DNA of 50,929 nucleotides from Gammaproteobacteria bacterium (GTDB lineage: Bacteria > Pseudomonadota > Gammaproteobacteria > CAIRSR01). Shown here one piece after another: positions 1,868 through 49,993 of the stretch. The stretch covers positions 1 to 50,929 of the forward strand of contig CAUYTY010000077.1 of NCBI GenBank assembly GCA_963575655.1, in the 5' to 3' direction. The notes below the pieces were generated by a model. That model worked only from the letters and a program-made list of their open reading frames with translations. It did not search any database and had not been told where the DNA came from. The position numbers were made by a program, and so were the translations under genes. Every line of letters begins with the position of its first letter. Position 1 is the first letter of the stretch.

Positions 1868-1993
1868 GGTATGACTCTCCAAATGTTAGAATTTTACGTA
1901 CTAAGACTGTCTTGGACTATTTACGTTAACTCGCGAAGGGTGCGAGTGAGGAACGAAGCTCATCATTCGCGTTATCCAGTCTATATTAGACAT

Positions 1994-2162
1994 TAGACAT
2001 TATCGGAAACCTCACCCCCCGCCCCCCTCTCCTTAACAGGAGAGGGGGAGAATTATTCCGTTGTTATGCTTAACTCCTGAACGGAACAGGCAAAAAATCT
2101 CCCCCTCTCCTGTTAAGGAGAGGGGGGCGGGGGGTGAGGTTTTGGGTTTCCGATAATGTCTA
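1994..2162. repeat. inverted-repeat (MITE-like) element, family TAGAC
   Basis: TAGACATTATCGGAAAC (1994-2010) is repeated inverted at 2146-2162 (GTTTCCGATAATGTCTA). Inside, C-rich and G-rich arms around CTCCTTAACAGGAG also pair, so the whole 169 bp could fold into one long hairpin. Both outer ends are TA, as expected for elements that target TA (IS630/Tc1-like). A relative with TAGACCTTATCGGAAACC ends sits at 35110-35210, and solitary ends occur at about 2245-2262 and at 34590-34605. It has no coding capacity. Confidence 0.8.
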
Positions 2163-28790: not shown

Positions 28791-32351
<3,561 letters not shown>

Positions 32352-32644
32352 ATGAATCTCTTGCTGGATCCCTCATTTCAGAATTTACCTCGTGAAGTGC
32401 CTCTTCCTGTACCGGAAATTAAGGTGATGCGCTTCGATTGGGCGATTAAGTCCCTGTTGCAAGACAAAGCCAACTTCGATGTTCTGGAAGGTTTTATCGG
32501 TGCGCTACTGGGTGAAGAAGAGATTGCTATTGAGCAAGTGTTAGAGAGTGAGAGCAATGCCGAAGAGGGGCATAAGTTCAACCGGGTAGATTTACTTGTT
32601 CACGATTGATTGGGTCGCAAGTTTATCGTTGAGGTGCAAAATCA
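32352..32644 (+). pseudogene. PD-(D/E)XK nuclease-family (Rpn/PDDEXK_2) fragment
   Basis: The frame begins MNLLLDPSFQNLPREVPLP and continues MRFDWAIKSLLQDKANFDVL and FNRVDLLVHD, then meets TGA at 32607-32609. Beyond it the same frame continues LGRKFIVEVQNQ until the IS end at 32645. Asp of VDLLV and Glu/Gln of VEVQ are the catalytic residues of this nuclease family, which is found in recombination-promoting transposase-like (Rpn) proteins. The gene is therefore broken twice: by a nonsense codon and by truncation at the IS1-family element. The remaining C-terminal half is not in the window. GAATACC before the ATG is a weak ribosome-binding site. Confidence 0.75.
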
Positions 32645-33907
32645 GGTGGTGTCTTACGTTGACCTAACTGGCAGAGCGGGAAAGGAAATCCACTCATGAA
32701 TTGTCCAAACATGATCGGTAAGACCAGCAGCCATGGCTGGTGTTCGATCTTTCCATTTTTCACGATCATCCTTAATACGCAGTGTTCGCACAGGCCAGCG
32801 GAAATTGTAGCTGAGTGCTACAAAGTATGTCATTGCATTGTGCATTTCCCAATTCTTTGAGAAACGGTAACTCTTACGGGTCTTCCGGGCATTCTGGCCA
32901 CGGTCGGTGGCATTGAGACGTTCGATGAATGCGGTATTGATAAAGGAGCTGACTATCGAGCGCGCCAGCCATAGGATCAATAACTCCAGAGTACCGAAGA
33001 CCACGGTTCGTTTCACATCCACAACTCGACCCTTCTTGCGAGTTTTACGAACGGTGGCATAACACAAGTCATTTGGCATGACTCGCTTTGGGTTCGGAGG
33101 ACGACCTGGCCCTGGTCGTTTAGGTTGTGCCACTTCGGTTGCGTAAACTTTCTCAATTGCAGTTTGGTAAGGGGCGTGTTCGTCGGATGTAAGTAACAAA
33201 TCAGTTCTTCCTTTAGTACGTTTACTAACATCTTCAACTAGTTGAAGACAATTCTCCGCCGTACGCTTTCCTGGAACCACGGACAGTACCAACCGACTTT
33301 CCGCATCAATAGCAATATGATCCCAATTATCCCCGCAGTTCTCTCCTTCTGGAGTGCAATTCGCTTCCTTCTTGAATACAAAACTCCATTTTTCATCAAA
33401 CTGTACTTCCCTTGTCTGGGGAGAGAACGCAACCAACTCGTCATGTACCAAGACCGCGTGATTTCCAGCCAAGCGTGCGTAACGAGTCACTGTATTCTGG
33501 TTCACATGAATTAGACGCGCCGTCTGCCGCACTCCACATCCTTCACGCAGATGTTCCAACAGGGATTCTACTTTTTCTTCGGGTAAACGACTTTGCTCAA
33601 ATACACTCCCCTTTCGTTCCGAAAAATATTTCCTGCACGTACGGCAACAAATACCTCGAATCCGATGAGAATGCCCACTCCACCCATGCCACCGCAAGTT
33701 TCCTTTGCCGCGAATTCGGAAATCAGGACAATCTACGTTGCGACAACAAAATACCTCAATTGGGTGTGCAGCCATCACTTTAACCTCAAGTAATTGAGAA
33801 TAAAAATACGCACTACGCTCGTAAAACAACAGCATTACTTTTTGTAACTGACAGAATTATAGAATGTTTTTGTCGTAGCGTAGGTTAGGTCAACGTAAGG
33901 CACCACC
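32645..33907 (-). mobile_element. IS1-family (ISMhu11-like) insertion sequence, apparently intact
   Basis: Terminal inverted repeats at 32645-32668 and 33884-33907 match at 23 of 24 positions (GGTGGTGTCTTACGTTGACC at the left end). The 1263-bp element carries one full-length transposase on the minus strand whose stop lies in the left repeat. The 8-9 bases outside each end differ (CAAAATCA versus TGCTATTC), so there is no target duplication. The left flank is the broken PD-(D/E)XK gene and the right flank is the HPt gene, implying an adjacent deletion or recombination. Confidence 0.85.
32654..33775 (-). CDS. IS1-family (ISMhu11-group) transposase
   Basis: A 373-residue DDE transposase read from ATG 33775, with GAGGT upstream. 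The longer ORF from 33835 adds 20 residues without a site. The N-terminus has zinc-finger cysteines (FCCRNVDCPDF, ICCRTCRKYF) and a helix-turn-helix, GVRQTARLIHVNQNTVTRYA. The catalytic part shows VQFDEKWSFV, LLLTSDEHAPY and the IS1-type ending FIERLNATDRGQNARKTRKS with RFSKNWEMHNAMTYF. A single uninterrupted frame and greater length than IS1 InsAB point to the ISMhu11-like group. It looks functional. Confidence 0.88.
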   Translation of the reverse strand: MAAHPIEVFCCRNVDCPDFRIRGKGNLRWHGWSGHSHRIRGICCRTCRKYFSERKGSVFEQSRLPEEKVESLLEHLREGCGVRQTARLIHVNQNTVTRYARLAGNHAVLVHDELVAFSPQTREVQFDEKWSFVFKKEANCTPEGENCGDNWDHIAIDAESRLVLSVVPGKRTAENCLQLVEDVSKRTKGRTDLLLTSDEHAPYQTAIEKVYATEVAQPKRPGPGRPPNPKRVMPNDLCYATVRKTRKKGRVVDVKRTVVFGTLELLILWLARSIVSSFINTAFIERLNATDRGQNARKTRKSYRFSKNWEMHNAMTYFVALSYNFRWPVRTLRIKDDREKWKDRTPAMAAGLTDHVWTIHEWISFPALPVRST

Positions 33908-34159
33908 TGCTATTCCACTCTCGAGCCAATCTTTTGCACTTACCTCTAACTCGCATGCTTGACGTGATAGCTCGGGATAGCCAAAAGTTCCGCCTGAACC
34001 AGCCAATTTGTGTAGACGCGCGTGGAGGTCCGCCAAAATGGTGGAGGGAATCTCCGGTCCTTGTTCGGAAACGCAGCTGGCCAGATCGTCCAAGGTATTT
34101 TTTATCTGACTGGCATACTGCTCATTTAGAGCAGCAAGTTGCGCGGCAAAATCAGACAT
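33890..34159 (-). CDS. histidine phosphotransfer (HPt) domain protein
   Basis: An 89-residue single-domain protein that relays phosphate between receiver domains. The start is ATG 34159 (MSDFAAQLAALNEQY), which overlaps the end of the preceding response-regulator gene by eight bases. The phospho-accepting histidine is His50 in ARLHKLAGSGGTFGY. The final residues GGALR and the stop are encoded by the terminal repeat of the IS1-family element, so its last helix may be shortened. It forms a pair with the upstream receiver protein, and the sensor kinase is not in the window. Confidence 0.8.
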   Translation of the reverse strand: MSDFAAQLAALNEQYASQIKNTLDDLASCVSEQGPEIPSTILADLHARLHKLAGSGGTFGYPELSRQACELEVSAKDWLESGIAGGALR

Positions 34160-34547: not shown

Positions 34548-35109
34548 GGTGAAAGGAGACTCCTGAGGAGAGGGTCGTGAATAATCTCTTAGACATTATC
34601 GGAAATCCCTGCCGTTGATTACCGCCTCACTATTCCGATAGGGAGTTCCAGATCCAGTACGCAGAGATATGAGGTGGAATGTGGGTTCACCATCTATAGA
34701 GCCTAGATTCCGACACTCCCTGCCGGAATGATTACTCGTTCACGGGAAGTCCTCGATAATATCTGTTTGTCGCAGTAAAGTAACAGACTTTTTTACAACC
34801 TCTCAAAAAATCACGCAGGGTGTTAATCTGCGCGTTGGCTAGATTACTCATCAGAATGCTAGATAACCCAAGTTGCTACCCATAGCATGTTACATCACCA
34901 TCTCGGCAGGGATCGCCGGAATCCAGTACACAGGGACGTGAGTTACTGTCGTGGTTTGAGTTAAGTAAACGAGGTGTCGTAGCTTAGACGGATAGTCGAT
35001 GGATAGATAAGTCCATAAGTCCTTAGGTTTCTCTTTTTTATTCTTGGACCGCCCGTACCTCTTCCAGAGGTATCACCGGGAAGATGGTGGTTGGGATGGT
35101 TTTACTCAA
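34548..35109. other. intergenic region with repeat-family fragments
   Basis: No gene is present. It holds a solitary TAGACATTATCGGAAA end (34590-34605), an imperfect palindromic unit at 34632-34730 (ATTCCGATAGGGAG against CTCCCTGCCGGAAT) and a solitary AACCCAAGTTGCTACC end (34865-34880). A second fragment with CGGCAGGGATCGCCGGAATC begins at about 34904. Three different dispersed repeat families are thus represented in under 400 bases. Confidence 0.65.
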
Positions 35110-37217: not shown

Positions 37218-37342
37218 GGCCACCCTCATCTTTTATGTAATGTAATGCAAGTTGTCACCTCTTCGCTGTATCGGCAGCGAATATCGAAATTCAACGGTCA
37301 TGAAGTATCTGGCGAGCCAGTTTTTTTGTAACTTATTAACAT

Positions 37343-37559
37343 AACCCAAGTTGCTACCCACATTGAGTAATTCTTTGATCGCCCTCCCCCCAACCCCTCC
37401 CGTTGGGAGGGGGAGAAAACAACGCCAGCCATTGATATTGGCCACTAGAGCTGAATATCTTCACTCCCTTCTCAACGGGAGGGGGTTGGGGGGAGGCGAT
37501 CAAAAAACTACTTGTCTGAAAAGAATTATGGCCTGAGACCGTAGGTGGCAACTTGGGTT
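37343..37559. repeat. 217-bp MITE-like element with 5-bp target duplication (copy A)
   Basis: The ends AACCCAAGTTGCTACCCAC and GTAGGTGGCAACTTGGGTT are inverted repeats with one mismatch in the outer 17 bases. The flanking pentamer AACAT occurs on both sides (37338-37342 and 37560-37564). Inner arms around GATCGCC and GGCGATC, with C-rich and G-rich tracts, also pair. A near-identical copy lies at 49475-49694. It has no coding capacity and sits upstream of fapA, between fapA and the next minus-strand gene. Confidence 0.9.
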
Positions 37560-37598
37560 AACATAGGATCTTACACGGCATAACGCTGGTGGCCTTTT

Positions 37599-49124: not shown

Positions 49125-49474
49125 GGGTAGTTGAGACGAAGTCCAATGTTCGTTCCAGGTAACTGAGTAACTGACGCTTAACGCCTCTTTAGATTACGCA
49201 ATATCCGCTCGGCGGGAAGGTCTTAGATAATCTAACGGAGGCAACGGAAGTCCAACCGAAATGACGCGATCGGCTTTAAAAACAGGGTAAATGCCATACA
49301 TAAAATATAGTTGAAGGGCGTAGGTTGGATCGACGAAGGGGGTTCAACACCACCGCTGTCGTGAAAATTGGCTCTAATCGTACCACACATTGATGTTGGG
49401 TTTCCCTCGTCAACCCGGCCTACGTGTTATTCCTATCAATTATTCCTAATCATAATATTAGTGCCAGATAAGAT

Positions 49475-49694
49475 AACCCAAGTTGCTACCTACATTGAGT
49501 AATTTTTTGATCGCCCTCCCCCCAATCCCCTCCCGTTGAGAGGGGGAGAAAACAACGCCAGCCATTGATATTGGCCACTAGAGCTGAATATCCTCACTCC
49601 CCCTCCCAATGGGAGGGGGTTGGGGGGAGGGCGATCAAAAAACTACTTGTCTGGAAAGAATTATGGCCTGAGACCGTAGGTGGCAACTTGGGTT
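49475..49694. repeat. 220-bp MITE-like element with 5-bp target duplication (copy B)
   Basis: This is the same element as at 37343-37559, with only scattered differences. It has outer ends AACCCAAGTTGCTACCTAC and GTAGGTGGCAACTTGGGTT. The pentamer AAGAT flanks it on both sides (49470-49474 and 49695-49699). Inner arms from GATCGCCCTCCCCCC to GGGGGGAGGGCGATC allow a long hairpin. Confidence 0.9.
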
Positions 49695-49824
49695 AAGATA
49701 ATACCGTTAGTGTCATTGTTAGTATTTACCGGCTTAATAATGCTAGAAATAACTGTCGCTGCCATCAAAAGAAAGTTCTCTTCATTCTTATCGTGGATCT
49801 GTTCGTGAGGAGCATAAAATATTT

Positions 49825-49913
49825 AACCCAAGTTGCTGCCTAGCGCGTTTTTTCCCCTCTCCCTCCGGGAGAGGGGCTTTTTCGTTTCTCACCGCATAGG
49901 CAGCACTTGGATT
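49825..49913 (+). repeat. 89-bp relative of the AACCCAAG element, containing a terminator-like hairpin
   Basis: The ends AACCCAAGTTGCTGCCTA and TAGGCAGCACTTGGATT match those of the larger elements with one deletion and one substitution. The interior is different: CCCCTCTCCC (49854-49863) pairs with GGGAGAGGGG (49867-49876) and is followed by CTTTTT, which would act as an intrinsic terminator on the + strand. There is no target duplication. Confidence 0.75.
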
Positions 49914-49993
49914 AATGAACATTCCTCTGAAACTTGTTGATGACAGTTACCTATTGTGATTTTTTGTCTAGTTACCGCACGATTGAATTTCCA

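Follow-up and report, generated by a model that had tools for sequence, protein, structure and literature searches.

Two repeats in the window (the whole 50,929-nucleotide stretch analysed) are, judging by their sequence, short gene-less mobile elements bearing IS982-family end sequences, and it is very probable that both are non-autonomous MITEs whose movement was due to an IS982-family DDE transposase acting in trans. These repeats, copy A and copy B, are 215 bp and 218 bp long and about 95% identical over 217 bp, have inverted ends of 17-18 bp, and are each flanked by perfect direct repeats, the sequence of which differs between A and B. The preliminary description of this DNA had named two copies with near-identical inverted ends and relatives near positions 49825, 34865 and 32222. 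All were found again, the first relative being full-length but degenerate and belonging to another family (~89 bp) with the same ends, and the other two the left end and the right end, respectively, of older decayed copies. The features are as follows:

32223..32239, minus strand: solitary right end of a decayed copy (12-mer with one mismatch)
34866..34882, plus strand: solitary left end of a decayed copy, ACCCAAGTTGCTACCCA
37337..37343, no strand: left target duplication of copy A, TAACATA
37344..37558, plus strand: copy A, 215-bp MITE, starts ACCCAAGTTGCTACCCA, finishes TAGGTGGCAACTTGGGT
37559..37565, no strand: right target duplication of copy A, TAACATA
49469..49475, no strand: left target duplication of copy B, TAAGATA
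49476..49693, plus strand: copy B, 218-bp MITE, 95% identity to A
49694..49700, no strand: right target duplication of copy B, TAAGATA
49826..49914, plus strand: degenerate copy from the ~89-bp hairpin MITE family, same ends, right end altered, without a perfect duplication

Copies A and B in the window

The 12-mer AACCCAAGTTGC has six perfect copies in the window, four of which are the ends of A and B, and with up to 2 mismatches it occurs 13 times vs 4.4 expected. Copy A is a nearly full-length foldback hairpin (z-score -11.1 as RNA and -9.2 as DNA), and the bases after the solitary left end at 34866 resemble the core of an element at C11:10693-10856. A search of plasmid DNA with copy A as query gave no match, and neither A nor B yielded an empty orthologous site in the relatives, where the flanks of copy A do not align. 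In line with the preliminary description, no IS982-type transposase gene was recognised in the window, where the sole transposase ORF found is IS1-like (32654-33835, 393 aa; NF033558, 57.9 bits, below the cut-off). This ORF sits between 35-bp inverted repeats (32634-33918).

Other repeats are present in the window. At the contig start (1-348) a 169-bp sequence is present as two identical direct copies at a spacing of 179 bp, and another foldback repeat, with ends TAGACATTATCGGAAACC..., occupies 1988-2168 and is also present in L064 and L130, as well as within a 217-type element at C261:61419-61805. The start of this TAGACATTATCGGAAACC-ended repeat is also the point where an IS982 transposase remnant on contig C250 breaks off.

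Copy number and families across the genome

The genome search for the ends that the preliminary description had proposed gave, for the 12-base AACCCAAGTTGC with up to 1 mismatch, 297 matches per strand in the 4.22-Mb genome vs 11 and 15 for the reversed control, or about 284 elements' worth of ends after the control was subtracted. The exact 17-base end ACCCAAGTTGCYACCTA was found 139 + 145 times in this genome, 29 + 27 times in G001 of the same genus, 62 + 76 times in G002 of a sister genus, and once among all other genomes of the 274-genome sample of the class, and the end search in a further sister-genus genome, G003, gave background level only. The 217-bp element itself gave no match in any of the 36 other genomes searched, among them G001. 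When a collection was scanned for copies of ~80-110 bp with perfect ends, one Armatimonadetes contig was obtained, from a scan in which records of this genome were possibly left out; the repeat on it, which thus comes from another phylum, is a ~99-bp foldback whose perfect ends are the same (L152 4860-4960, JADLDR010000064.1).

From 1.09 Mb of stretches, selected partly for holding copies, 97 end pairs were resolved. Sequence clustering gave families of ~87-100 bp (33 copies, mean identity 84%), ~143-152 bp (21 copies, 95%), 215-238 bp (the A/B type, 8 copies, 86%), ~165 bp (4 copies, 93%) and ~122 bp (2 copies), together with a shorter form related to the 215-238 bp family (5 copies, 133-149 bp) and single older copies. 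The main families are thus 87-238 bp long, below the 500 bp taken as the upper size of a bacterial MITE, lack a transposase, have inverted ends of 17-18 bp and are present in multiple copies, as is usual for bacterial MITEs. By sequence comparison, at least four families (about 89, 145, 165 and 217 bp) have little in common except their ends, and the ~165-bp family resembles the ~89-bp family on both sides. Many contigs begin or finish 36-54 bases within such elements, positions which suggest that near-identical MITE copies probably broke the assembly.

End pairs spaced 790-1081 bp were considered as autonomous copies and rejected on their contents: at C250:26555-27635 an integrase-type transposase ORF is inserted inside a ~89-bp element, and the pairs at C33:10894 and C133:16103 enclose unrelated coding sequence. 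In 3 of 10 copies related to the 217-bp family (C33:38965, C213:25793 and C261:61419) the core is inverted relative to the outer arms, an arrangement that would result if the long inverted arms recombined or if template switching took place between them. MITE copies with identical flanks at C193:11090-11177 and C213:27030-27117 represent a duplicated or redundantly assembled segment.

Target duplications and element boundaries

Duplications were scored in the 83 copies of 80-245 bp with both flanks present. Perfect duplications were found at 44 of them: 6 bp in 31 copies, 7 bp in 10, and 5, 8 and 9 bp in one copy each, the 217-bp family having them at 7 of its 8 copies. In the shuffled control (left flanks vs right flanks of other copies) 3.8% were perfect, and nearly all of these chance matches were 6 bp because the target is biased. 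TA starts 41 and ends 43 of the 44 perfect duplications, TAATTA being the commonest, so that the target form is nearly always TA-N(1-5)-TA. The transposition reading of the preliminary description, which had called for duplications to be confirmed across many copies, is therefore borne out at this wider scale. Its fixed length of 5 bp did not survive: perfect duplications do flank A and B, at 7 bp each, and the family ranges over 5-9 bp, mostly 6 bp.

The difference in length follows from where the boundary is placed. The preliminary description had bounded the copies as AACCC...GGGTT, outside which the direct duplications read AACAT (A) and AAGAT (B); the copies are real, and each end shifts by one base, to ACCC...GGGT. 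Since T is the first and A the last base of most targets, a frame of AACCC...GGGTT with a 2-bp-shorter duplication is possible at most copies, and it would make 4 bp the commonest duplication. The GTTTTA duplications at C83:4175 and C195:17289, in which G follows GGGT, fit only ACCC...GGGT, and with the end fixed by these two copies we rejected AACCC...GGGTT with 5-bp duplications as a general rule. The ACCC...GGGT boundary also suits the IS982 family, whose ends begin 5'-AC (PMC7335449).

We found one empty paralogous site within the genome. At C217:1883-1969 an 87-bp copy lies between two TATCTA sequences, and its flanks, when joined, match C195:22705-22789 at 88% identity, where a single TATCTA is uninterrupted. 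A second candidate empty site (C217:40382 vs window 1964-2060) lies at the margin of another repeat, and we left it out of the count.

These observations bear on whether recombination or slippage, and not transposition, could have copied the repeats as structural intergenic sequences of the REP or terminator-like hairpin kind. The MITE cores are strong foldbacks, and similar GC-rich hairpins without the ends occur elsewhere, as that reading would expect; the defined ends, unrelated flanks, matched target duplications and the empty site argue against it, and we regard it as highly improbable, though the MITEs might still have a secondary regulatory role. The GC-rich hairpin repeats were observed at C99:2782-2922, C22:49865-49997, C11:6602-6735 and C184:24863-24915, most of them with ends GTAAYCGTTCACTCCCCC; their hairpin is that of the 217-bp core, and they are without IS982-type ends.

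IS982 elements with the same ends

At a contig end of G001, an open frame, MEEMIIIIYCIC..., comes directly after a MITE-type end, and this genome has a similar start at C250. The partial proteins match NCBIfam NF033520 (IS982 family transposase) below the whole-protein cut-off, and a search with NF033520 gave copies scoring above the cut-off both here and in G001. The IS982 element of G001 (L131, C329) is 1205 bp long, with ends ACCTAAGTTGCTACCTA / TAGGTGGCAACTTGAGT, duplication TAAAATTA, and an intact transposase of 272 aa (NF033520, 189.2 bits vs a cut-off of 130; PF13612, 61.7 bits). A MITE-type end is combined with a transposase start or C-terminus at about fifty places in G002, most of them at contig ends, and the final 19-52 transposase codons adjoin the MITE-type end. 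In addition, an annotated IS982 on a Pseudanabaena plasmid (L150) has ends ACCCAAGTTGCTACCTA and the duplication TACGTA, and one on a Rhodothermus plasmid has ends related to those of the MITEs. Ends common to the MITEs and an IS982 element, as expected of IS982-derived MITEs, were thus found in G001 (L131), G002, Pseudanabaena (L150) and a remnant in this genome itself (L109), and the same target type that flanks the MITEs flanks IS982 in G001 and Pseudanabaena and the roughly fifty places in G002. Direct repeats of this family vary over 2-10 bp, and those found here are 5-9 bp, mostly 6-7. Compared with the wider IS982 consensus AC(N)6T(N)5TT, ACCCAAGTTGCYACCTA has T at position 9, and CT, not TT, at positions 15-16.

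The only matching-end IS982 transposase gene found in this genome is the remnant at C250:67442-67756 (L109), which is broken off after ~103 codons, where another repeat (TAGACCTTATCGGAAACC) starts at the contig end. Counting from the end, this remnant matches the 145-bp family without a difference for 22 bp, 4 beyond the shared inverted repeat, and a DNA search with the first 90 bases of the remnant gave no second copy beyond the shared 22-base end. No intact IS982 with the exact MITE ends was found in the assembly, which is fragmented into 261 contigs and could be missing a collapsed copy. Given the broken state of the one matching gene found, we presume that MITE movement in this genome is probably past or rare, and the MITE family may be one orphaned of its transposase.

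Another IS982 subtype, with ends ACCTGAGTTCGACG, is represented by near-identical intact transposases at C51, C122 and C188 and by a partial one at C195; at C51 this subtype has the duplication TAGGTA of the same TA-N-TA form. With intact genes and the same target, this subtype might have spread the MITEs, or might still move them, by cross-mobilisation; however, its ends match those of the MITEs at few positions only (ACC..AGTT), and IS982 elements with ends nearly identical to the MITE ends exist in the sister genomes, so we consider this unlikely.

Further, IS110-family sequence adjoins ACCCAAGTTGCCACC at C8, C27, C30, C73 and C204, and an IS110-family element joined to the MITE end sequence could be imagined as the mobilising partner. 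The IS110 sequence starts inside the end of an apparent MITE, which is what would be seen if IS110 used that end as an insertion target, and IS110 elements are not known for inverted-repeat-bounded insertions with 6-7 bp duplications; an IS110 partner has next to no probability in our estimate, and we rejected it. The junctions in question (L061 on C204, L037 on C8, L059 on C27, L063 on C30 and L062 on C73) join the element, whose L061/C204 protein matches NF033542 with 218 bits, to the initial ~16 bases of the MITE end, as though this end served as its insertion target, and may be compared with IS1111 and QMITE2 of Coxiella.

Discussion

In the mechanism favoured here, an IS982-family DDE transposase would recognise the 17-18 bp ends ACCCAAGTTGCYACCTA and make a staggered cut, usually of 6-7 bp, at AT-rich TA-N-TA targets, the element would be joined to the cut target, and gap repair would duplicate the target. 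We infer that an IS982 transposase is the mover of the MITEs and that the short ends alone are sufficient, because the families share little else. We also put forward, tentatively and as a possibility we would not favour, that one IS982 end type repeatedly spawned unrelated MITE families in this lineage, short ends being enough and differing GC-rich hairpin repeats having been captured, and that the resulting elements either persisted after their own transposase was lost or now depend on the second IS982 subtype.

Elements of the IS982 family have ends starting with 5'-AC and variable direct repeats of 2-10 bp (PMC7335449). The elements described here share with this family (PMC7335449; NF033520, PF13612) the AC-starting ends of ~17-18 bp, the variable duplications and, in their partners, a DDE transposase, but those in the window are without a transposase and are 89-220 bp long vs ~1 kb. 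This kind of element is already known, since an IS982-derived MITE has been published: MITECca01 of Cardinium cOegib, ~240 bp long, with 169 copies and lineage-specific, is presumed to be mobilised in trans by an IS982 element, and ISCca4 is its listed counterpart (PMC9769881). Our elements are similar to MITECca01/ISCca4 in size, IS982-family ends, high copy number, restriction to a lineage and presumed in-trans mobilisation, whereas the ends, the core sequences and the host differ, and here several families exist per end type and no intact same-end partner was found in the assembly. Chunjie of Geobacter and QMITE2 of Coxiella are likewise families of bacterial MITEs that include truncated copies and variants of different size, and QMITE2 is also targeted by an IS110-group element, IS1111 (PMC10969869); unlike the present elements, they are not described as IS982-related in PMC10969869, and their copy numbers are lower. 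That review of prokaryotic MITEs gives other abundant families too, among them ERIC, which reaches 711 copies (PMC10969869). What is notable here is the copy number and how many distinct families have one end in common.

The MITEs account for many of the repeats, and probably for many of the contig breaks, in this genome, and they constitute a clear instance of a MITE burst in a bacterium linked to the IS982 family, which has been little studied; the target preference of this IS group (TA-N-TA) was obtained from dozens of copies. An intact current IS982 partner would be recognised by the end sequence ACCCAAGTTGC. These elements are of use for annotation and for the study of how MITEs come to outnumber their partner.
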